From contig JAGCTF010000062.1 of assembly GCA_017963755.1 (NCBI GenBank), positions 1 through 37,899 of the forward strand: a stretch of DNA of 37,899 nt, read 5' to 3'. The notes below the pieces were generated by a model. That model was not told the DNA's origin. It ran no database searches and saw only the letters and a program-made list of their open reading frames with translations. This document shows positions 12,156-27,798 of this stretch, one piece after another. How positions within the stretch are numbered: the stretch's first letter is position 1; each line of letters starts with the position of its first letter. The DNA is from Clostridia bacterium (GTDB lineage Bacteria; Bacillota; Clostridia; UBA1212; UBA1255). Made by a program: the position numbers and the translations under genes.

Positions 12156-13871
12156 ATGCGAATCAAAATAAATATAGTAAGCATAAAAAAGATCGCGGCA
12201 CTTGTGCTCGCGGCAGTCATTGCCGCCGGGATCGCGGCATTCAGCGGATGCAGCAAGGCTGACGTAACCGAAGAGCCCGGAAAAGCGACGCAGGCGCCTC
12301 CCACTCAGGAGCCTGAAGCACTGAAAGAGCCGGAGCCCGTTGACCTCGGTACAGGGAGGCCGCTGGCAGATATATTGGAAGGAGCTGGTGTTAAAATGAG
12401 CAGAAGATACTATCGGAAAGGGTTCGTGGTTGCCGTACCCGTCGGAAAGCATTACGGGTTCTGGGGACTTGCGAAGTCAGAACTTATGAAGGACGAGCGC
12501 TGGGCGGTGAATACCCTTCTCGGCGACCGCGTTTATACGACCGCGTTTTTCATTGCCAACGCCCTCGGAATGAGGCTCACGCAGACCGATGACAGCGTCG
12601 AGTTTAAGCTGAACGACATTGTCACCCTGTCATTTAAGACCGGCGAGAATAAAGCGACGCTGAACGGGACTGAATATCCTGCATATCCTGCCCAGAAGAG
12701 CGGCGCGAACATATTCATCGACTGCGGGACCGTTGCCGCCCTGCTCGGGTACGAATCATATTTCGATGCCGCGGAAGGCATCTTTCTGATGTACCCTTCC
12801 GATATTGAAGCGGATGCCGCAGAGCAGATCAATATCTATAAAGAACGCATTCAGCTTTATGAAACGGTCGTTTTCAATACCGACGACGTTCCGTGCGATA
12901 CGACCGGCTCTGGCCTCTACGAGCCCGTCGCTTTTGAAGACAGGCAGGTCGGAGTCGCGTACACTACGTGGTTCAGAGCGGATTCTTCGTGGGGTAAAAA
13001 TTACACGTGGGATCTTCCGATGCTTGGTAAATACCGTTCCGACGACGAGGCGGTCATATATCAGCACGGTGTGTGGCTCGCGAATGCAGGGGTGGATTTC
13101 GTATTTGTGGACTGGTCGAACGACATTGCATACGAACCGACTACGATGCATGATCTGCGTAAAGATTTCAGTATGATAGAAGACGCAACTGAGGTGCTGT
13201 TCAGAGTGTGGGGAACTATCCCCGGCGCTCCCAAGATCTGCATCTTCTCAGGCCCCGGGCACGTTCAGTCGGATCAGGATACTTTTAAGAACGGCAGGAT
13301 GAAGGCCAAGAACGACCAGATCTATAAGACGTTTATCGAGAACGAAGAGTTTAACAAGATGTATTACTATTACGAGGGAAAGCCGCTGCTCATGTGCTAC
13401 GGTGCGACGCCTTCGTTTGCGCGCTCTGAGAACGAATACGTTGACGACAGATTTACTATACGGTGGGTCACCGGTTACGTAGGTCAGCAAGGTATCCTGC
13501 ACGATAAAGCGACGCTGGTCTCGACATTCCACTGGAGCTGGGAGGAGCGCGGAGCTCAGACGTTCACGGTCAAGAACGGGAAGCCGGAGGCAATGACCGT
13601 TGTCGCTTCATGGAGGAAGCAGAGTAAAGAGGGGCAGCCCGGTTATATCGCTCCGGGGCTTCGTGACGGGGGCAATACGTTTAAGATGCAGTGGGCGCGT
13701 GCCGATCTTATCGGGCCGAAATTTGCGCTTATCGTTTCGTTTAACGAGTGGCACCTCGGGGAGCAGATTTCCTTGGAGAACAGCAAGGATATCGAGCCTT
13801 CTGAGACGCTTGGATCGCTGTATCTGGATATTATGACTGAGCAGATAAGGAAATTTAAGGGGAAGGCGTAA
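12156..13871 (+). CDS. Lipoprotein with GH71/GH99-like catalytic domain
   Basis: The 571-residue protein has a lipoprotein signal (hydrophobic segment, then AAFSGC with lipidated Cys32) and a Pro/Glu-rich linker. A domain at about 95-215 resembles the copper-amine-oxidase N-terminal-like repeat of clostridial wall proteins (ATLNGTEYPAYP, FIDCGTVAALLG). The C-terminal part is a (beta/alpha)8-type region: VGVAYTTWFR, AGVDFVFVDWSND and finally SFNEWHLGEQISLE with Asn530-Glu531. The NEWH pattern is characteristic of GH99 endo-alpha-mannosidases and the related GH71/WbsX group, so an alpha-glycan-hydrolysing, membrane-tethered enzyme is likely. Family placement is approximate and the substrate is unknown. 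Its 3' end overlaps the convergent YoaK gene by 17 bases. Confidence 0.72.
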   Translation: MRIKINIVSIKKIAALVLAAVIAAGIAAFSGCSKADVTEEPGKATQAPPTQEPEALKEPEPVDLGTGRPLADILEGAGVKMSRRYYRKGFVVAVPVGKHYGFWGLAKSELMKDERWAVNTLLGDRVYTTAFFIANALGMRLTQTDDSVEFKLNDIVTLSFKTGENKATLNGTEYPAYPAQKSGANIFIDCGTVAALLGYESYFDAAEGIFLMYPSDIEADAAEQINIYKERIQLYETVVFNTDDVPCDTTGSGLYEPVAFEDRQVGVAYTTWFRADSSWGKNYTWDLPMLGKYRSDDEAVIYQHGVWLANAGVDFVFVDWSNDIAYEPTTMHDLRKDFSMIEDATEVLFRVWGTIPGAPKICIFSGPGHVQSDQDTFKNGRMKAKNDQIYKTFIENEEFNKMYYYYEGKPLLMCYGATPSFARSENEYVDDRFTIRWVTGYVGQQGILHDKATLVSTFHWSWEERGAQTFTVKNGKPEAMTVVASWRKQSKEGQPGYIAPGLRDGGNTFKMQWARADLIGPKFALIVSFNEWHLGEQISLENSKDIEPSETLGSLYLDIMTEQIRKFKGKA

Positions 13872-14643: not shown

Positions 14644-15720
14644 TCAGCCTTCGGGTTTCTCGGTGATCCTCGCGGTAGGTCTGGGAGTGGGAGTTTCGAT
14701 CGGGCCTGCGGTCGGCAGCGTGTCGTCGATAGTTCTGACAGCACTCTTTGCGACAACGATGGCAGGACGGACACCGACTGTAAGATCAGCGGCACTGAAT
14801 CCGCCTTCATCTACGTCGCCGTTACGGTCAACGCCCTGGAAATACGTATTGAGGCCGGGGCTTCTGAGCCACCAGCTGCCGAATCTTGTTTTGTATTCTG
14901 CGGCGACACCGCGTTTTGCTGCATACGGAGTCGTGGCAGCCTGCATCGAAAGTTCATTTCCGAAATAGCCTTCAAGTTCATCCGCGGCAAATAAGTAGAC
15001 CAGATCTTCAGTATCTGCGCCGCCGGAAGTATTGAAAATCTCGTTCCCGGCAGTTTTATTCGTAACGGATTTTAACTGGGCGATCTCGTCTTCTTTAAAT
15101 GCACGGTCAATGAAGTTCCAGCTTTCGATATATTTTTCGCCGCTTCTCGCGTAGTCGTCAGTTCCGTTAAGCCAGTCCCTGATCGTAGATCCTTCCCACT
15201 GAACGACCGCATATTCGTCGAGGAACGGCTTTGCGTCAAGTATTTCGCGGGATATAAGCAGATAACTGTCTCCCATATCTTTAAGTATGATCCACTGTAT
15301 CTCCTGAACGCGGTAATATTTATTTCCTTCTTTTGCGTAATTGGTTATAGTGGTGACTCCGTCTTTCGTAACTTCTTCTACGTAATAGCCAGTCTGAATA
15401 TCGTATTTCGCTACTGTCACGCCCGTCACGTTTCCATCGGCATCTTTAGTCTCTGTTTCTTCTTCGACCCAGAGTCCGGTGACGTCGTCTATCTTTATGT
15501 TTTTGAACAGATTCGTGATCGAGCTCGGAGCGGCCGTATTGGGATATGACCCGAAAGCCACGAGCGATTCGGCGGCAGCTGTCGGTTTGGTCTGTACTTT
15601 TGGATCTCCGTGGGCAGGTGTCCAGTTGGACTCGCCTTTTTCTATTTCGGCGCAGCCGCAGAATAACATTACGGCGGCAACTGCGAGCGCGGCAAGTATG
15701 ATCAGTTTTTTATTTCTCAT
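14644..15720 (-). CDS. DUF6273 domain lipoprotein
   Basis: ATG 15720 is preceded by AGGAGG; the frame extends further upstream but without a signal. The 358-residue protein has a lipoprotein signal with MLFCGC (lipidated Cys23), a Thr/Pro linker and a domain with the features of DUF6273: 'VVQWEGSTIRDWLNG', 'IDRAFKEDEIAQL', then 'FGSWWLRSPG' and 'GVDRNGDV...GVRPAIVV'. These domains are common in exported proteins of clostridia and have no established function. The C-terminus is a Pro/Thr-rich tail (TPTPRPTARITEKPEG) with no anchor, so attachment is through the lipid. It is driven by a near-consensus promoter at 15786-15814. Confidence 0.8.
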   Translation of the reverse strand: MRNKKLIILAALAVAAVMLFCGCAEIEKGESNWTPAHGDPKVQTKPTAAAESLVAFGSYPNTAAPSSITNLFKNIKIDDVTGLWVEEETETKDADGNVTGVTVAKYDIQTGYYVEEVTKDGVTTITNYAKEGNKYYRVQEIQWIILKDMGDSYLLISREILDAKPFLDEYAVVQWEGSTIRDWLNGTDDYARSGEKYIESWNFIDRAFKEDEIAQLKSVTNKTAGNEIFNTSGGADTEDLVYLFAADELEGYFGNELSMQAATTPYAAKRGVAAEYKTRFGSWWLRSPGLNTYFQGVDRNGDVDEGGFSAADLTVGVRPAIVVAKSAVRTIDDTLPTAGPIETPTPRPTARITEKPEG

Positions 15721-15785
15721 GCTCTTTTCCTCCTGTACAAAACGGCTTTTACGTACGGTCGATCCCGCCCAAAGCCACACATATT

Positions 15786-16646: not shown

Positions 16647-17816
16647 TCAAACGTTTATGACTTCTATATTTTCGAGCGCGATCTCTTCCAGCTTTTCGTA
16701 TTCGTATCTCGCTTCTTCGTCGAGCACTTCCTGAAGATGCGGGCGCGTCTTCGGATGCTTTGGGGTAAATACGGTGCAGCAGTCTTCGTACGGCAGTATG
16801 CTGGTGTCAAACGTTCCGATCCTGCGGGCAATTTCTACCGTTTCCATCTTATCCATTCCGATGAGCGGCCTGTAGACCGGCATATTGGCAACTGCGTTGT
16901 CGGTGCAGTAGATCGCCTGTACGGTCTGGCTCGCGACCTGCCCTACGCTTTCACCCGTGATCAGCGCGGAACAGTTGTTCCTGCGGGCAATGCGCTCGGA
17001 GATGCGCATCATTGACCGGCGAAGCAGGATCGTTGACAATTCTTCCCTGCAGTTCTGCATTATTGCGAGCTGCACGTCGGTAAACGGCACTACCATTACT
17101 TTCATCGGTCCCGTAAAACGCGATACGATGCGTGCAAGGTCGATCACCTTTTCCTTAGCGCGTTCGCTCGTATAAGGATAGCTGTAAAAATGCGCGGCGC
17201 ATATAGCTACGCCTCTTTTTCCGATCATATATCCGGCAACCGGGCTGTCGATCCCGCCTGAAAGCAGCAGGCAGGCTTTTCCGTTGGAGCCGGTGGGCAT
17301 TCCTCCGGGGGCGTCAATTATTTCCGTATACACGTATGAGCGTTCGCGCACTTCGATATAGACTGTAAAGTCCGGGTGTTTTACGTCAACGCGCAGGTGC
17401 GGGCATGCTTCCAGGATCCTGCCTCCGGCCTCGTCGGAGATCTGCGGCGAATTCATCGGGAAGCTCTTAAGGCCGCGTTTCGTCTCTACTTTGAAGGTTT
17501 TCGCGCCTTTAGCCGCGCGCTCTTTTGCGGCCTCGACCGCTTTTGCGAAAAACAGTTCGGCTTCCGTATCCATTACCCATGCAGGGCTTATAGAGACAAG
17601 GCCGAACACGCCGGACAGACGCTCTACGGCAGTCTCGAAGTCGAAATCATCAGAGGCAGGTTCTACGAAATACCGCGACTGTGACCAGTGTATCTGAGCC
17701 TCTCCGAGATCGGATATTGCTTTATGCATATTTGTTGCGAGGCGGTGTTCAAACGTTGAGCGGTTCAGCCCTTTTAAGGCTATCTCGCCTATTCTTCCTA
17801 AAATTATCCTGTCCAT
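16647..17816 (-). CDS. thiI: tRNA 4-thiouridine synthase (rhodanese-less ThiI)
   Basis: ThiI adenylates U8 of tRNA and replaces its oxygen with sulfur, giving s4U; in some bacteria it also serves thiazole synthesis. ATG 17816 has AAGGTG upstream; the frame's earlier codons overlap the preceding gene. The 389-residue protein has the N-terminal ferredoxin-like/THUMP region (1-165), the PP-loop SGGIDS at 186-191, and Cys346-Cys347 in the DCCTVF segment, where the E. coli enzyme has its acceptor cysteine. It lacks the C-terminal rhodanese domain of E. coli ThiI, as in Bacillus, where the dedicated desulfurase NifZ supplies sulfur directly. The gene for such a desulfurase, fused to TrmD, ends 28 bases upstream. 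Confidence 0.93.
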   Translation of the reverse strand: MDRIILGRIGEIALKGLNRSTFEHRLATNMHKAISDLGEAQIHWSQSRYFVEPASDDFDFETAVERLSGVFGLVSISPAWVMDTEAELFFAKAVEAAKERAAKGAKTFKVETKRGLKSFPMNSPQISDEAGGRILEACPHLRVDVKHPDFTVYIEVRERSYVYTEIIDAPGGMPTGSNGKACLLLSGGIDSPVAGYMIGKRGVAICAAHFYSYPYTSERAKEKVIDLARIVSRFTGPMKVMVVPFTDVQLAIMQNCREELSTILLRRSMMRISERIARRNNCSALITGESVGQVASQTVQAIYCTDNAVANMPVYRPLIGMDKMETVEIARRIGTFDTSILPYEDCCTVFTPKHPKTRPHLQEVLDEEARYEYEKLEEIALENIEVINV

Positions 17817-17844
17817 TTTAATACACCTTACTGTTAAAGTTCGA

Positions 17845-19746
17845 TCATTGTTTCTGCTGTTTGCGCGTGCTCCTGGAATGAAGGGCATAGAGCGCTTTTA
17901 TTTCGCGCACAAGTATCTTTGAAGCGTATTCGCACTGCGCTTTTGTATTGTCCGCGGAAAAACTTATGCGGATAGCTCCGTCGGTCACGACGTTGTCAAC
18001 GCCCATCGCTTTTAGGACGGTGCTTCTGTCCTTCTTGTGTGACGAGCATGCCGAACCGACCGAGACGTAAATGTTGTATTGTTCGAGTGTATGGAGTATT
18101 ACTTCGGCGCGCAGTCCCGGGAACGATACGTTTAAGATATACGGAGAGCAGCCGTTTTCGGGCGAGTTGAATACGTACGTGCGAAGTCCGTCTCTTATTG
18201 CGTCCGTAAATATCCGTTTTAGTTCGCTTACTTTTTCGTAATTTCCCGGAGCGTTTTTGCAGATGATGCCGGCTGCCTTGTCCATACCGCAGATCGCAGG
18301 CAGGTTTTCTGTTCCGGAGCGCATGCCGCCCTCCTGGCCTCCTCCGTAGAGCAGCGGTTTCATCTTGAGCCTTTTATCTGCGTAAAGGAAGCCTGTCCCG
18401 CGCGGCCCGTGGATCTTATGAGCACTGACGGAGATCAGATCGACGCCGAGCTTTTTTACGTTGACGTCGAGCTTTCCGAAACTCTGTACGCAGTCGCAGT
18501 GTATGATCGTGTCCGGTTTGATGCTGCGCACCGCACGGACTATTTCTTCTATGGGCTGGACGGTACCGGTCTCGCTGTTAACGTGCATTATTGACACCAG
18601 CGCGGTTTCATGCGGTCTGAGCATCGCTGTAAACCGTTCGATATTTACACGCCCGTCGGAATCGACAGGGGCCAGTTCCACCTCGTACCCTTGATCGCGC
18701 ATTGACAGCGCACTTTCCATGACGGACGGGTGTTCTACCGCAGATACGATCACGTGTTTTCCGAGCCGCGGATTTGCCGGCAGAATACCCCGGAAGACCC
18801 AGTTATTCGCCTCTGTAGCCCCGGAAGTGAAATAAATATTGCCGGAGCCTGTACCGCCTATGAGTTCGAGGAGGTTTTTTCTGCAGGATACGAGTTCTTT
18901 TTCCGCGTTAAAACCGAGGCCGTGCAGCGAGGAAGGATTTCCGTAAAGGACGTCGCTTACGCGAGCCATTCTTTCGGCGACCTGATACCGCTGCCTGGTA
19001 GTAGCGCTGTTGTCAAAATAAAACGTGTTCGCTTCACGTTCGCGGCGCATGTATTTTTCGTACAGATCGGGCCGTTTCTTTTGCGTGCGGGCAATTGCAT
19101 TTTCCCTGCGCCATTGTTCGATCTCGCCGTGATTGCCCCGAAGCAGCACGTCCGGAACGCTTTTCCCCGAAATAGTTTCAGGTCTCGTAAATTGTGCGTA
19201 TTCGAGCAGAATATCCGAGTGCGATTCATTTTCGTACGCTTCGCTGCTCGCGAGCACTCCGGGAACGAGGCGGGCAACGCAGTCCGCAACCGCCATTGCC
19301 GGTATTTCTCCGCCGGTAAGCACGAAATCGCCGAGCGAGATCTCTTCGTCGACAATATCTTCAATGACGCGCTCATCCATACCCTCGTAATGGCCGCAGA
19401 TGATCACGAGCCTGTCCTTCGCGGCAAGCCTTTTCGCCACCTGCTGGTCAAACCTTGTCCCCTGCGGAGACATGTAAATCGTATACGGTTTGCAGCCGTC
19501 TTCAGCCGGATGTTTGTCAAGGACCGCATCGTACGCGGACTTTACAGGCTGATACGACATAACAAGTCCGGGACCTCCGCCGTACGGGTAATCGTCTACT
19601 TTACCCTGTCTGTCTTCGGTGTAGTCCCGGATCTGATGACATTCTATTTCAATATGACCCGCTTTTATCGCGCGTGCGACAATGCTTTCTGAAAAAGCGG
19701 CGCCGCACATATCCGGAAACAGGGTCAATATATCTATCCGTTTCAT
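17845..19746 (-). CDS. trmD: TrmD::cysteine desulfurase fusion protein
   Basis: One uninterrupted 633-codon frame encodes two complete enzymes. Residues 1-238 are TrmD, the SAM-dependent tRNA (guanine-37-N1) methyltransferase: YGGGPGLVM (55-63), YMSPQGTRFDQ (91-101), CGHYEGMDERV (117-127) and the knot region EEISLGDFVLTGGE (134-147). Residues 241-633 are a class V aminotransferase-type cysteine desulfurase (NifS/IscS/NifZ-like): FDNSATT near 244-250, His339, Asp418, Gln421, PLP Lys444 in SAHK, and catalytic Cys567 in GSACSS. There is no linker; the TrmD C-terminal tail is replaced by the desulfurase N-terminus. Met233 has no ribosome site before it, so separate initiation is unlikely. The start overlaps the rimM stop as ATGA, and thiI follows. 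The desulfurase probably feeds ThiI. That the fusion is real rather than an assembly error is inference from clean frames and intact active sites on both sides. Confidence 0.9.
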   Translation of the reverse strand: MKRIDILTLFPDMCGAAFSESIVARAIKAGHIEIECHQIRDYTEDRQGKVDDYPYGGGPGLVMSYQPVKSAYDAVLDKHPAEDGCKPYTIYMSPQGTRFDQQVAKRLAAKDRLVIICGHYEGMDERVIEDIVDEEISLGDFVLTGGEIPAMAVADCVARLVPGVLASSEAYENESHSDILLEYAQFTRPETISGKSVPDVLLRGNHGEIEQWRRENAIARTQKKRPDLYEKYMRREREANTFYFDNSATTRQRYQVAERMARVSDVLYGNPSSLHGLGFNAEKELVSCRKNLLELIGGTGSGNIYFTSGATEANNWVFRGILPANPRLGKHVIVSAVEHPSVMESALSMRDQGYEVELAPVDSDGRVNIERFTAMLRPHETALVSIMHVNSETGTVQPIEEIVRAVRSIKPDTIIHCDCVQSFGKLDVNVKKLGVDLISVSAHKIHGPRGTGFLYADKRLKMKPLLYGGGQEGGMRSGTENLPAICGMDKAAGIICKNAPGNYEKVSELKRIFTDAIRDGLRTYVFNSPENGCSPYILNVSFPGLRAEVILHTLEQYNIYVSVGSACSSHKKDRSTVLKAMGVDNVVTDGAIRISFSADNTKAQCEYASKILVREIKALYALHSRSTRKQQKQ

Positions 19747-20351
19747 TTTACGTCCCCGTCATCCCCCGAACCCAGATATACTTCTTTAAGCCCTGGAAGC
19801 AGTTTCACAAAAACGAGTCCGCGCTCAACGTCAACTTTTTTTATAACGTCGCCTATTGAAGGCAGATACAGTTCTTTCTTATCAGGCGTGCGTACTCCGT
19901 AAACGTCGTTGCTCCCGGTGGGCTGGACGTCGAAAAGTTTGCCGAGGTACTTTACGCCCTGCGCATGTATATCAAAAACAGTTTCATCAGCGCCTTCTCC
20001 GAATTCATATACTTCAGACCCTATAAGATCGCCGATGAAATAAGTATCTTCCGGAAGTTCGACAGCTTCTTCACGCGTTACGGAAAGCTTAGCTCCCCTG
20101 AATAATTCAGCCGTATTTCTGTCTTCAACGCCTTCGAGCAGCAATATAACGGTGCTGCCTGAAACTGTCGCGTATGCGACGTTATAGCGCTTTGAAAGCC
20201 CTTTATACGGCCCGGCGTCAGAAGGAAGTTTAACATCTACGGCATCGGTCTGCGTAAAACGCTCAGGGTAATCCGTAAGAGGCTTAACTTTAAGGCCTCC
20301 TCTGATTCCGTGTACACTTACTACTTCGCCGATAAGCAGATTTTTAAGCAT
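19743..20351 (-). CDS. rimM: Ribosome maturation factor RimM
   Basis: RimM binds 30S precursors through ribosomal protein uS19 and helps maturation of the 16S 3' domain. The 202-residue protein shows the N-terminal RimM barrel (LIGEVVSVHGIRGGLKVKPL, then TDYPERF), the LEGVEDRNTAE segment, and a C-terminal PRC-barrel-like half (ELYLPSIGDVIKKVD). It is somewhat longer than usual because of an acidic insertion around residues 115-130. Its stop overlaps the start of the trmD fusion by four bases (ATGA). A 164-base AT-rich gap with repeated GTCAATT elements separates it from khpA. Confidence 0.92.
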   Translation of the reverse strand: MLKNLLIGEVVSVHGIRGGLKVKPLTDYPERFTQTDAVDVKLPSDAGPYKGLSKRYNVAYATVSGSTVILLLEGVEDRNTAELFRGAKLSVTREEAVELPEDTYFIGDLIGSEVYEFGEGADETVFDIHAQGVKYLGKLFDVQPTGSNDVYGVRTPDKKELYLPSIGDVIKKVDVERGLVFVKLLPGLKEVYLGSGDDGDVK

Positions 20352-20515: not shown

Positions 20516-20755
20516 TTATTCGGCTTTATCGACGATGTCAATATAAACCGGTTTCGGATTGTTTCTGAAAGCAGCCTTTGCCACGGTACGGAGCGCTCTT
20601 GCGACTCTGCCTTCACGGCCGATTACTCTGCCCATATCTTCGGGGGCAACACTGAGTTTAAGAACCGTATTATTCTCATTCTCTTCTACAACTACAGAAA
20701 CCTGATCCGGGTCATCCACCAGCTGGCGGACAATGTTAATAAGGAATTCTTCCAT
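20516..20755 (-). CDS. khpA: KH-domain RNA-binding protein KhpA
   Basis: The 79-residue protein is a single KH domain, with the GxxG-type loop 'VIGREGRVARALRTV' in the middle. It matches KhpA/YlqC, a small RNA-binding protein that partners with KhpB (Jag) in Firmicutes and affects cell division and RNA regulation. The position between rpsP and rimM is the conserved Firmicutes order. The start lies 39 bases after the rpsP stop. Confidence 0.92.
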   Translation of the reverse strand: MEEFLINIVRQLVDDPDQVSVVVEENENNTVLKLSVAPEDMGRVIGREGRVARALRTVAKAAFRNNPKPVYIDIVDKAE

Positions 20756-20794
20756 TTTAATAATTTACCTCACTTCATTTTGAGAATGCTGTTA

Positions 20795-21037
20795 TCAAGC
20801 GTTCTCCTGTGCTTTTTTCAATAAATTTTTAACGGTATCAGTAGGCTGTGCGCCTTTTTTGATCCATTCGTTTGCTTTTTCCAAATCGATTTTAACCTCG
20901 GCAGGTTCTACGAGCGGATTATACGTTCCGATCTCTTCGACAAATCTGCCGTCTCTGGCGTAATGTGATTCAGCAACTACGACTCTGTAGAAAGGCGCTT
21001 TCTTCGCACCGATCCTTCTTAATCTGATCTTAAGCAT
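20795..21037 (-). CDS. rpsP: 30S ribosomal protein bS16
   Basis: The 80-residue protein carries the bS16 N-terminal signature '[20 protein letters not shown]' followed by '[15 protein letters not shown]'. It binds the 5' domain of 16S rRNA and aids 30S assembly. ATG 21037 has a strong GGAGGTG site. It follows ffh by 93 bases and precedes khpA, the typical clostridial arrangement. Confidence 0.96.
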
Positions 21038-21130
21038 CTATTTTCACCTCCATGTCATAAAATCCTTATATTTACAAAAATTGACCGGCACCCCGGCTTG
21101 AAACGTTTATCCGCGAAGTACGGCCTCACG

Positions 21131-22489
21131 TCATCCGCCAAACCCCGAGAAGTCTCCGGGAAATCCGCCGGGGAATCCTCCGCCAAATCCTTTTTTGCCA
21201 ATACCGCCTTTGGTCATGCGCTTCATCATTGTGCGCATCTGTTCGAACTGACTCATCAGTTTGTTTACGTCCTGCACCGTCGTGCCGCTTCCGGCAGCGA
21301 TCCTTTTGCGCCTGCTGGCGTTGAGGATGTCCGGATTGCGTTTTTCTTTGGGCGTCATAGAGCAGATGATCGCTTCGATTTTGGAAAGTGCGCTCTCATC
21401 TATCTGCGAATCATTTATCTGCGACGCTCCGGGGATAAGTTTGAGGATGCCGCGAAGTCCCCCGAGTTTTCGTATCTGCCTGAGCTGAGAAAGGAAATCA
21501 TCGAGCGTAAACGTCTGCGCGCGCATCTTTTTCTCGAGTTCGACAGCCTGCTTTTCGTCGTACATTTCCTGCGCTTTTTCGATAAGCGTAAGTACGTCGC
21601 CCATGCCGAGGATCCTGTCGGCCATGCGCTTCGGATAAAACGTCTCGAATTCGCTGAGTTTCTCGCCGCTCGACGCAAATTTGATCGGTTTTCCGGTGAT
21701 AGATCTGACGGACAATGCCGCACCGCCTCTCGTGTCGCTGTCGAGTTTGGACAATATCACGCCGGTAATATCGAGGTCGTCGTTGAACGCTTTCGCAACG
21801 TTCGCCGCCTCCTGGCCGGTCATGCTGTCAACGACGAGCAGTATTTCTGACGGATTCAGCACTTTTTTCAGCTGCCTGAGTTCTTCCATCATGTCTTCAT
21901 CGATCTGAAGTCGTCCGGCGGTATCTACGATGACCGTGTCGTTGAGGCTCCTCAGCGCCTTTTTCACAGCGTTCTGCGCTATCTCTACGGGCTTTTTGCT
22001 GTCTTCCGTATAAACAGGCACGTCGATCTGTTTTCCCAGTATCTCGAGCTGTTTTATAGCTGCCGGTCTGTATACGTCGCACGCGGCCATCAGCGGTTTT
22101 CTGCCGTTTTTCCTGAGGTTCAGCGCAAGTTTGGCGGAAGCCGTAGTTTTACCGGCGCCCTGAAGTCCGCACATAAGAATGACGTTCGGCGGCTGCTTTG
22201 AAAAATCAAGTTTATAATCGTCTGCACCTAAAAGTTCGACGAGTTCGTCGTCAACTATCTTTACGATCTGCTGTCCGGGAGAGAGGCTTTCGAGCACCTT
22301 CTGCCCTACTGCTTTTTCCGATACTTTCGAGATGAAATCTTTAACGACTTTATAGTTTACGTCCGCTTCGAGAAGTGCGAGACGGATCTCGCGCATAAAC
22401 TCTTTAACGTCTTTCTCGGAGACTCTGGTCTGTCCCCTGAGACGCTTCATAGTGGCCTGCAATTTTGCGGATAAACTTTCAAATGCCAT
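21131..22489 (-). CDS. ffh: Signal recognition particle protein Ffh
   Basis: Ffh is the SRP GTPase that binds 4.5S/scRNA and signal peptides and delivers nascent membrane proteins to FtsY. The 452-residue protein has the N domain, then the G domain with P-loop CGLQGAGKTT near 108-117, the DTAGR element and the TKLD-equivalent 'SKLDSDTRGG'. The Met-rich M domain at the C-terminus ends in a flexible Gly/Phe tail (GGFPGGFPGDFSGFGG). Length and order are normal. It sits 32 bases after ylxM and 93 before rpsP. Confidence 0.96.
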   Translation of the reverse strand: MAFESLSAKLQATMKRLRGQTRVSEKDVKEFMREIRLALLEADVNYKVVKDFISKVSEKAVGQKVLESLSPGQQIVKIVDDELVELLGADDYKLDFSKQPPNVILMCGLQGAGKTTASAKLALNLRKNGRKPLMAACDVYRPAAIKQLEILGKQIDVPVYTEDSKKPVEIAQNAVKKALRSLNDTVIVDTAGRLQIDEDMMEELRQLKKVLNPSEILLVVDSMTGQEAANVAKAFNDDLDITGVILSKLDSDTRGGAALSVRSITGKPIKFASSGEKLSEFETFYPKRMADRILGMGDVLTLIEKAQEMYDEKQAVELEKKMRAQTFTLDDFLSQLRQIRKLGGLRGILKLIPGASQINDSQIDESALSKIEAIICSMTPKEKRNPDILNASRRKRIAAGSGTTVQDVNKLMSQFEQMRTMMKRMTKGGIGKKGFGGGFPGGFPGDFSGFGG

Positions 22490-22521
22490 TTATTTTTCTC
22501 CATTCAGGTACCCTGCCGCCG

Positions 22522-22887
22522 TTACAGTTCGGCGATCAGGTCTGTGATATGTTTTTTTATGTTTGCAAGTACTTCAGCCTCATATTTAGAGAGCGACGAG
22601 CTGTCGATTATTTCGCATTCCGTCTGTATCTCTTCAAGCATCGCTCTGTTCTTTTTATAGCGGCTGAACATTCCCAGCTTCTCTTCGAATTCAAGAAGCT
22701 GCTGCTTTCCTTTTGTGATGAAACTGTGGGCGCCCTGTCTCGATATTCCGAGCGTCTCACCGATCTCGGCGAGACTCATGTCTTCGCTGTAGTACAGGTT
22801 CATCACTTCAAGCGTATTTTCAGTAAGCAGGGATCCGTAGAAATCCATCAGCATACCCATTTCATACATTTCCGACTGCTCTCTCAC
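22522..22887 (-). CDS. ylxM: YlxM family HTH protein (SRP-associated)
   Basis: YlxM is a small helix-turn-helix protein resembling region 4 of sigma factors, encoded before ffh in Firmicutes and reported to bind SRP components. The recognition helix region is MSLAEIGETLGISRQGAHSF, near the middle of about 121 residues. GTG 22887 is chosen because GGAGG lies five bases upstream; a GTG at 22899 lacks any ribosome site. A strong promoter (22980-23008) and a palindrome at the start site precede it, so it is the first gene of the long operon. Confidence 0.88.
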   Translation of the reverse strand: MREQSEMYEMGMLMDFYGSLLTENTLEVMNLYYSEDMSLAEIGETLGISRQGAHSFITKGKQQLLEFEEKLGMFSRYKKNRAMLEEIQTECEIIDSSSLSKYEAEVLANIKKHITDLIAEL

Positions 22888-22957
22888 GTTGCCCTCCACA
22901 AAAAATGCCTGCGGTACCGGTTTTGATCGGTTGATTCCCCGCCCCGGATCCGCGCGC

Positions 22958-25221: not shown

Positions 25222-25443
25222 TCAAATTACTTTATAACCCTGCTCTTCTACCGCTTTCTTAAGCGTTTCTTCAGAGACGTCGCCCGAAAGAGTCACGGTG
25301 CATATATTCTTTTCATGATCAGGCGCAGCGCTTTCGACACCATCTATCGCCTCGAGCGCCTTCTTTACCCTTGCCTCACAATGCATGCACATCATACCTT
25401 CAACGTTAAGGGTAACCGTTTTCTTATTTTCTTCTTTATTCAT
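25222..25443 (-). CDS. Possible internally initiated CopZ-like chaperone (same frame as copA)
   Basis: Inside copA an ATG at 25443 is preceded by AGGAGG (25455-25460) with an 11-base spacer. Translation from it would give a 73-residue protein consisting of one HMA domain with GMMCMHC, the size and content of a free CopZ chaperone. Since it is in frame with copA, both a fused and a free form could be made. This is inference from the retained ribosome site; the spacer is slightly long and the site could be a relic of a once separate copZ gene. Confidence 0.4.
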   Translation of the reverse strand: MNKEENKKTVTLNVEGMMCMHCEARVKKALEAIDGVESAAPDHEKNICTVTLSGDVSEETLKKAVEEQGYKVI

Positions 25444-27798
25444 AACGATTTTTTCCTCCTCTTCTGACTTTAACGTTCCAACGTTATTTTCGCTTGAAAA
25501 ACCGTGCGCTTTTACGCGCTTTTTTCCGTGTATATTTACAAGATTCAGTCTGAGCGCATTCATGCAGACGCAGAAGCTAGACAGGCTCATTGCAAGCGCG
25601 CCGTACATTGGCTTCATCGCAAGCCCGAACAGGCCGATCGCGAGCGGAATGCATATGATATTATAAATAAATGCCCAGAACAGGTTCTCATATATATTGC
25701 GAATGACCGCACGGCTGAGCCTTACCGCCGCGACAGCGTCGGACAATCTGTTTTTAACGAGTACGATATCGGCCGCGTCTATGGCAACGTCCGCGCCTGC
25801 CCCTATGGCCAGCCCGGCGTCAGCGCTGACAAGTGCCGGAGCATCATTGATCCCGTCACCCACCATCGCAGTCTTCCCGCGCTTTTTAAGCTCATCGATC
25901 ACTTTCGCCTTTCCGTCCGGGCGCACTTCCGCAATGACCTCATCTACTCCCGCCGCTTTTCCGACCGCCGCCGCGGTGCGGGCATTGTCGCCGGTAAGCA
26001 TTATCACGGAGATATTCATTGCCCTCAGGTCGGATACCGCCTCCGCCGAATCTGCTCTTACGGTATCCTCTGTGCATATCATACCAAGGATCCTGCCGTT
26101 CTTCGCAAATACGAGCGGCGTTCTGCCCGCCATGGCTTCTTCATCCGCAAGTTTTTTTAAGTCTTCACTTATTCCGGCGACGCTGTCGATATACGAAACG
26201 CTTCCTCCGAGAAGCAGTTCTCCGTCTTCAGCATAAGCCTTCAGTCCGTTTCCCGGAAGCGCCTCGAAATCTCTCGCCGGCGCCGGTACTATTCCAAGCG
26301 AACGCGCATAAGAAACTACCGCTTTACCGAGCGGGTGTTCACTCCCTGCCTCCATCGAAGCAGCGAGTTCTACAAGCTGCGATCTGTCTACCCCTTCTGC
26401 GGGATAAACACGTGTCACGGAAGGTTCGCCGCTCGTAACTGTACCTGTTTTATCGAGTGCAGCAACTTTAACCCGCCCCAGGATCTCAAGCGACGCAGCG
26501 GTTTTGTACAGGATCCCGTTTTTAGCACCGACTCCGCTCCCCGCCATTATAGCAACCGGTGTAGCAAGTCCGAGCGCACACGGGCAGCTGATGACGAGCA
26601 CGGTTATAGCCCTTCCTATAGCGAAAGAAAACTGTTTTCCGGCGATCATCCAGCCCGCCAGCGTAAGCAAGGCGATCACAAGCACTGCAGGCACAAAAAT
26701 TCCGGAAACCTTATCCGCGATCCTTGCGAGCGGCGCTTTCGTAGCGGCGGCGTCCGACACAAGTTTTATGATCTGATTAAGCGTCGTATCCTGTCCGACG
26801 CGCGTCGCCCTGCAGCGAAGAAAGCCGGACTGGTTCACTGTTCCGGTATACACACCGTCACCGGGCTGTTTGTCCACCGGAACGCTCTCGCCCGTAAGCG
26901 CGGATTCGTTCACGGCTCCGGACCCTTCAGTAACGACGCCGTCCACCGGGAAATTTTCACCCGGCCGGACAACAAATATATCCCCTTCTTTTACGTCCGC
27001 GACAGGAACTTCACGTTCCTCGCCGTCCCTAATGACCGCGGCAGTCTTCGGGGTCAATTTAAAGAGCCCTTTCAGCGCGTCGGTCGTTCTGCCTTTCGAT
27101 TTGGCCTCTAAAAGTTTCCCTACTGTGATCAGGGTCAGTATCATCGCAGCCGATTCAAAATACAGATTCATATGGTATGCCATAACTGCTTCGGCATTTC
27201 CCTTTGCACTCTGGCTGATCATCAGAAGGAGCTGTACAGCGGAATACACAAAAGCGGTACCGGAGCCCAGCGCGACCAGCGTGTCCATATTCGGACCGCC
27301 GTGAAACAGTGCCTTAGCTCCGCTGATAAAGAATTTCTGGTTTATCACCATGACGACAGCCGCGAGCATCATCTGAACGACACCGGAAAACACGGGATCG
27401 TCAAACGCGGCAGGCAGCGGCCAGTTCCACATCATATGCCCCATCGAGCAATACATCAGTATAAGCAGGACAACGGCAGATGCGATGAGTCTGCGTATCA
27501 GTTTCGGGCTTTCCCGGTCCTTTAGCGCTTCTTCCCGCGGGTCAACGCCTCCGTTTTTTTCTGAAGCCCTGCCGCTTTCACGGACGGCATAATTCTCTTC
27601 AGCGCTGAGAGCAGCGCCGTATCCTGCGTTTTCGACCGCGCTGATGATCTGTTCAGGACTCGCATCGCCTTCTACACCCATAGTGTTCGTAAGCAGACTG
27701 ACAGAGCAGGATGAGACTCCTTCAACTTTTGAAACAGCCTTTTCAACTCTCGCACTGCACGCTGCGCAGCTCATTCCTGTGATCGTATATTTAGTCAT
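25222..27798 (-). CDS. copA: Copper-translocating P1B-type ATPase with fused C-terminal CopZ-like domain
   Basis: CopA pumps Cu(I) out of the cytoplasm. The 858-residue protein has an N-terminal heavy-metal-associated domain (GMSCAAC, 8-14), eight predicted membrane helices, the actuator TGES (302-305), the Cu(I) transport motif CPC (405-407), the phosphorylation motif DKTGT (449-453), SEHP (486-489) and GDGINDAP (647-654). After the last helix a charged linker leads into a second HMA domain (GMMCMHC, 801-807) that looks like the copper chaperone CopZ. The linker retains an AGGAGG and ATG (Met786), suggesting a former or still active separate start. No CsoR or CopY regulator is adjacent. It ends 14 bases from the convergent regulator gene. 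Confidence 0.93.
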   Translation of the reverse strand: MTKYTITGMSCAACSARVEKAVSKVEGVSSCSVSLLTNTMGVEGDASPEQIISAVENAGYGAALSAEENYAVRESGRASEKNGGVDPREEALKDRESPKLIRRLIASAVVLLILMYCSMGHMMWNWPLPAAFDDPVFSGVVQMMLAAVVMVINQKFFISGAKALFHGGPNMDTLVALGSGTAFVYSAVQLLLMISQSAKGNAEAVMAYHMNLYFESAAMILTLITVGKLLEAKSKGRTTDALKGLFKLTPKTAAVIRDGEEREVPVADVKEGDIFVVRPGENFPVDGVVTEGSGAVNESALTGESVPVDKQPGDGVYTGTVNQSGFLRCRATRVGQDTTLNQIIKLVSDAAATKAPLARIADKVSGIFVPAVLVIALLTLAGWMIAGKQFSFAIGRAITVLVISCPCALGLATPVAIMAGSGVGAKNGILYKTAASLEILGRVKVAALDKTGTVTSGEPSVTRVYPAEGVDRSQLVELAASMEAGSEHPLGKAVVSYARSLGIVPAPARDFEALPGNGLKAYAEDGELLLGGSVSYIDSVAGISEDLKKLADEEAMAGRTPLVFAKNGRILGMICTEDTVRADSAEAVSDLRAMNISVIMLTGDNARTAAAVGKAAGVDEVIAEVRPDGKAKVIDELKKRGKTAMVGDGINDAPALVSADAGLAIGAGADVAIDAADIVLVKNRLSDAVAAVRLSRAVIRNIYENLFWAFIYNIICIPLAIGLFGLAMKPMYGALAMSLSSFCVCMNALRLNLVNIHGKKRVKAHGFSSENNVGTLKSEEEEKIVMNKEENKKTVTLNVEGMMCMHCEARVKKALEAIDGVESAAPDHEKNICTVTLSGDVSEETLKKAVEEQGYKVI

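Follow-up and report, generated by a model that had tools for sequence, protein, structure and literature searches.

A TrmD–cysteine desulfurase fusion directly upstream of thiI in one order of Clostridia

The window, a stretch of 37,899 nucleotides from a Clostridia bacterium, contains a gene in which a tRNA m1G37 methyltransferase (TrmD) is joined in frame to a cysteine desulfurase of the NifS/IscS family, followed by the gene for a rhodanese-less ThiI. Judged from the genomes compared, the fusion is a conserved feature of a single little-known bacterial order from gut and rumen. Its product is very probably one bifunctional protein, uniting the sole TrmD of the cell (m1G37) with the partner desulfurase that donates persulfide to ThiI for s4U8. 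We infer that both halves are active, that ThiI receives the persulfide and that the product is not processed into two proteins.

The fused gene and its surroundings

The features are listed in Table 1. The initial annotation described a single frame of 633 codons without naming its strand; it was found on the minus strand, with an ATG start and no internal stops. The stop codon of rimM overlaps the ATG of the fused gene by 4 nt. Genes further upstream in this ribosomal operon were named from homology and known operon order. Between the end of the fused frame and the likely start of thiI lies a gap of 22 nt; for thiI, a start at 17822 (MDRIILGRIGE) was favoured over a longer frame from 17888, judging from homologues. 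ThiI_fer, THUMP and ThiI domains were found in its product and a rhodanese match was not, in agreement with the rhodanese-less ThiI first proposed as the next gene. In bacteria, rplS commonly follows trmD. The rplS gene of the window's genome (G000) is located on another contig, C239 (L166), and the nifS part and thiI occupy its usual place here.

Table 1. Coordinates of the fused gene, its parts, its neighbours and related loci in other sequences (window positions unless a contig or locus is named).
Feature	Position	Strand	Basis
Fused gene trmD-nifS, 633 codons + stop	17845..19746	minus	ORF list
TrmD part, residues 1-238, SPOUT fold, putative tRNA m1G37 methyltransferase	19033..19746	minus	Pfam PF01746, NCBIfam TrmD equivalogs, phmmer to TrmD structures
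Linker, residues 228-242, LYEKYMRREREANTF	19021..19065	minus	alignment; AlphaFold2 helix to about residue 239
Cysteine desulfurase part, residues 243-633, NifS/IscS fold, putative ThiI-partner (NifZ-like) type	17848..19020	minus	Pfam PF00266, Foldseek, trees
PLP-binding lysine K444	18415..18417	minus	invariant in 17-sequence alignment
Catalytic cysteine C567 in SVGSACSSHKK	18046..18048	minus	invariant in 17-sequence alignment; loop compared with unfused relatives
thiI, rhodanese-less tRNA 4-thiouridine synthase	16647..17822	minus	Pfam ThiI, ThiI_fer, THUMP
rimM, upstream of fused gene	19743..20351	minus	ORF list; Pfam RimM
ylxM, ffh, rpsP, KH-domain protein (khpA-like), further upstream in the ribosomal operon	20516..22899	minus	ORFs; relatives with same order
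Unfused trmD + nifS of family f5, ATGA overlap, Shine-Dalgarno	L122 5693-7545; L123 1344-3196		
Second desulfurase cluster: IscS-type desulfurase, IscU-type scaffold (NifU_N), MnmA, Rrf2 regulator	contig C175; L121 3702-6957		

The TrmD half

The Pfam model tRNA_m1G_MT (PF01746) matched residues 24–226 with 192.5 bits against a cut-off of 27.3, and the NCBIfam TrmD equivalogs NF000648 (293.9 bits, cut-off 220) and TIGR00088 (281.8 bits, cut-off 195) were passed as well. R159 and the knot motifs GHYEG and GDYVLTGGE were invariant in the alignment. With these curated profiles above cut-off and the motifs kept, the N-terminal half proved to be the complete TrmD that had been proposed. As a test of the active site, R154 and D169 were used, which we take to be the catalytic and cofactor residues of E. 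coli TrmD. E174 is the residue aligned to D169. A loss of catalysis through this exchange was considered and rejected, since the compared unfused clostridial TrmDs also carry glutamate.

Exactly one PF01746 match per genome was obtained in 28 of the 29 order genomes searched and none in the remaining one, so this profile search found no second, hidden TrmD in any order genome having a match. The trmD gene is essential in bacteria. Because the fused copy is the sole TrmD, it must work and supply the m1G37 of the cell; it is from this sole-copy status that the fused half is predicted to make m1G37.

The desulfurase half

Residues 243–606 matched Pfam Aminotran_5 (PF00266) with 235.9 bits against a cut-off of 21.5, and NifS/IscS models of NCBIfam matched strongly, spanning residues 242–620. 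None of the NCBIfam desulfurase equivalog cut-offs (NifS, IscS, DndA, SufS and others) was reached, the best match being TIGR03402 (NifS) with 329 bits against 531. By these profiles the half is a member of the broad NifS/IscS family and of no named NCBIfam sub-type, and because no equivalog cut-off was reached, the sub-type rests on gene order and the tree. The top listed Foldseek matches were NifS/IscS-type structures and selenocysteine lyases, with a target TM of up to 0.95. The passed PF00266 model, the matching fold and the invariance of K444 and C567 in 17 sequences bear out the claim of a complete NifS/IscS-like desulfurase.

In the desulfurase tree, the fused half groups with desulfurases of other Clostridia whose genes stand immediately before thiI, and the unfused desulfurases of the outgroups are likewise located directly upstream of thiI. 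By tree and gene order, the fused half is the orthologue of the NifZ-type desulfurase that normally stands directly before thiI in Clostridia. The genome also encodes a second desulfurase, with an identity of about 34–36% to the fused half, in a cluster with IscU, MnmA and an Rrf2 regulator (Table 1). This cluster is likely the Fe-S assembly and s2U34 branch of the window's genome.

A valine, V563 (18058-18060, minus strand), is located four residues before C567, in the motif SVGSACSS of the fused desulfurases. It was present in 25 of the 26 fused sequences covering this region, the exception being G026 with a threonine. All 19 unfused desulfurases compared have T, S or A at this position, the thiI-linked loop reading S[T/S/A]GSACS. 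The coincidence of the valine with the fusion hints at some adaptation after fusion.

Distribution and conservation

The order-level set comprised 31 genomes, draft and mostly metagenome-type assemblies, many and independent. The fused frame was found across the junction in 27 of them, from four families, which answers the question, raised by the initial annotation, of whether related genomes carry homologous fusions. The fusion is full-length in 24 genomes and cut only by contig ends in three more (G005, G012 and G026). Contig C64 of G026 was considered as a possible unfused copy and rejected: it shares 98% identity with the junction contig where the two overlap, and so carries the remaining end of that fused gene. 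Of the four genomes without the fused frame, the two of family f5 have adjacent separate genes, the single f2 genome has them on separate contigs and G029, 69% complete, gave no trmD match whatsoever.

Identity between fused proteins of different families goes down to about 50%, with the frame open throughout and the TrmD motifs kept. In pairwise counts, dN was about 0.04–0.27 in both halves versus a dS of about 0.7 to saturation, and across the junction synonymous change exceeded non-synonymous change in 10 of the 10 pairs compared. These ratios indicate purifying selection on both halves.

Among 391 genomes of the class, covering 88 families, every match spanning both halves belongs to the order, and, at a threshold above single-domain scores, no fusion was found outside it in 375 class genomes. 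A phylum sample of 398 genomes shared some members with the class sample. Here the window's own genome was the only one to pass the threshold of E ≤ 1e-162, which was likewise set above single-domain scores and may have missed a strongly diverged fusion.

The junction

The two halves had been described as joined with no linker, which did not hold: 15 residues separate the last TrmD motif (RPD) from the first desulfurase motif (YFDNSATT). This length is 15 in all members of family f1, 16 in f4, 5 in f6 and 31 in f3. AlphaFold2 predicted two folded domains connected via a helix (residues 226–239), with a mean pLDDT of 80.6 and a pTM of 0.63. The model, of a monomer and from 17 sequences, is of moderate confidence, with pLDDT values under 50 in parts of the TrmD half and in the Cys loop. 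In known structures, TrmD and NifS are both dimers.

An assembly or frameshift artefact might be suspected, every source being a draft assembly. The recurrence of the junction in 27 genomes from four families, the constant linker lengths within families and the excess of synonymous change across the junction speak against it, and on the strength of the recurrence we reject this explanation as practically impossible. It is also very improbable that the fused frame yields two proteins, whether through an internal start or through proteolysis. In-frame ATG codons are present in the window at Met233 and Met260, and candidate starts with a partial Shine-Dalgarno sequence exist in a few relatives. 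However, as stated in the initial annotation, no ribosome site precedes Met233: a Shine-Dalgarno-like sequence is missing there and the methionine itself occurs in only 2 of 27 sequences, for which initiation at this codon was rejected. The segment from residue 215 to 262 is devoid of start codons in four relatives, the majority of starts fall within the desulfurase domain, and no conserved in-frame start with a ribosome site was found at the junction of the fused sequences compared. By contrast, a clear ribosome site is present in f5, where AAAGGAG precedes an ATGA that holds both the nifS start and the trmD stop; the fused members have neither this overlapping stop/start nor the ribosome site.

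Origin of the fusion

In a tree of TrmD, NifS and ThiI together, the fused families form one clade (100/100) with f5 as its sister (100/100), while f2 is placed with the class outgroups. The topology argues for a single origin of the fusion. On the simplest path, the genes would have passed from separate to adjacent or overlapping and then to fused; an earlier fusion with a later fission in f5 costs the same. In the ancestor, a nifS-thiI pair would have come directly after trmD in a ylxM-ffh-rpsP-khpA-rimM-trmD operon, and the fusion would have occurred once, through loss of the trmD stop and of the nifS start and ribosome site.

Wherever downstream sequence was read, thiI directly follows the fused gene, including at loci outside the ribosomal operon. 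In part of f4 (L135, L138, L139), the fused gene and thiI are found outside the ffh-rpsP operon, downstream of a phosphoglucose-isomerase-like (pgi-like) gene. Because both left the ribosomal operon jointly, the fusion and thiI move together.

Function of the fused protein

The proposed mechanism starts from a single bifunctional product with a predicted mass of about 70 kDa. Its N-terminal half, as the only TrmD of the cell, would form m1G37 in tRNA. The PLP-dependent C-terminal half would transfer sulfur from cysteine onto C567, and the rhodanese-less ThiI of the adjacent downstream gene would receive the resulting persulfide for s4U8 synthesis. The thiolases of B. subtilis are each served by a separate desulfurase, and s4U formation there needs no more than NifZ and a ThiI lacking the rhodanese domain (PMC5372745; PMC4041423). 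The dedicated-donor reading of the initial annotation stands in so far as gene order and tree assign the fused half to the ThiI-partner type, and the other desulfurase lies beside IscU and MnmA as the Bacillus pair model predicts; its further part, an effect of the fusion on either reaction, was not carried by these data.

Whether the joining itself matters can be read in two ways. The chances are about even that the fusion is a near-neutral outcome of tightly overlapping genes, the halves working independently with fixed 1:1 production as the sole consequence. The sister family f5, with its ATGA overlap and strong AAAGGAG site, is one small step from fusion, and neither a new domain nor a long linker was added. 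The deep retention, to about 50% identity, does not on its own separate neutral from selected fusion, and the change in the Cys loop hints at adaptation after it. Alternatively, the fusion may be kept since TrmD holds the sulfur donor near tRNA and ThiI, coupling G37 methylation and U8 thiolation physically or kinetically, which is possible but rather unlikely. Retention of the fused state in at least four families with zero reversals among the sampled fused lineages, the adjacency of thiI even downstream of the pgi-like gene, the constant linker length within families and the valine of the fused clade would fit such a coupling. On the other hand, linkers of 5 to 31 residues between families require no clade-wide fixed geometry, and f5 manages without the fusion. 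TrmD binds tRNA in the region of the D and anticodon stems. In the study of a ThiI-RNA structure, a full-length tRNA, when modelled, reportedly collides through its D and anticodon stems with the PPase domain of ThiI (PMC4041423). Because this clash overlaps the TrmD-binding region, it is doubtful that ThiI and TrmD could bind one tRNA together. A single complex for both G37 methylation and persulfide delivery for s4U8 is a conjecture, and its action on the same tRNA at the same time would be doubtful on the modelled geometry. That TrmD anchors an assembly with ThiI for tRNA modification, coupling cysteine/sulfur status and frame-maintaining G37 methylation in one essential protein, we consider unlikely.

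Comparison with known systems

The bifunctional TrmD-desulfurase proposed here apparently represents a new domain architecture built from known enzyme families. No published TrmD-desulfurase fusion was found in a literature search whose coverage excluded subscription journals and unpublished annotation, consistent with its first description as undescribed. The one natural TrmD fusion found is TrmD-Tm1570 of Calditerrivibrio nitroreducens, which shows that TrmD accepts a C-terminal domain (PMC11187310). TrmD is the N-terminal partner in both proteins, but the partner in TrmD-Tm1570 is a second SPOUT methyltransferase (PF09936) and the bacteria are different, whereas that of the window protein is a PLP enzyme; Pfam found no PF09936 as its C-terminal domain and PF00266 instead. 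Compared to the stand-alone TrmDs of E. coli, H. influenzae and S. aureus with known structures, the window's protein shares the complete knotted TrmD, R159, an acidic residue (E174) at the D169 position and the upstream ffh-rpsP-rimM order; it differs in the 390-residue desulfurase that replaces TrmD's own stop and in the location of rplS on another contig.

In the NifZ-ThiI pair of B. subtilis, too, a rhodanese-less ThiI is directly preceded by the gene of a NifS-family desulfurase, its dedicated donor (PMC5372745), but NifZ is a free protein and the window's desulfurase is joined to TrmD. The f5 loci (L122, L123) have trmD-nifS-thiI in the same order and the same operon; they differ by separate frames for trmD and nifS, with a 4-nt overlap and a ribosome site before nifS. 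A desulfurase is also paired with a tRNA thiolase in YrvO-MnmA (s2U34, Bacillus) and in the iscS-iscU-mnmA-Rrf2 cluster of the window's genome, although thiolase and desulfurase both differ there from the pair of the fused half and ThiI.

TrmD is an essential, near-universal bacterial enzyme; by the literature found, it is normally stand-alone, and its one other natural fusion joins a second methyltransferase. A conserved TrmD-desulfurase fusion would be a natural link of tRNA methylation with tRNA thiolation. Because separate, overlapping and fused genes are all found within the order, the effect of the fusion on chemistry versus expression is directly addressable.

Other genes in the window

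Three further genes of the window were recorded. At 12156-13871 (plus strand), a secreted-looking ORF of 571 amino acids matches only glycosyl hydrolase family 99, and this below the threshold, and a lipoprotein-like ORF with DUF6273 is located at 14644-15780 (minus strand). The gene at 25222-27798 (minus strand) encodes a copper-type P-ATPase in which Pfam detected two HMA stretches, one N-terminal and the other at the extreme C-terminus, resembling an in-frame fusion of CopA and CopZ.
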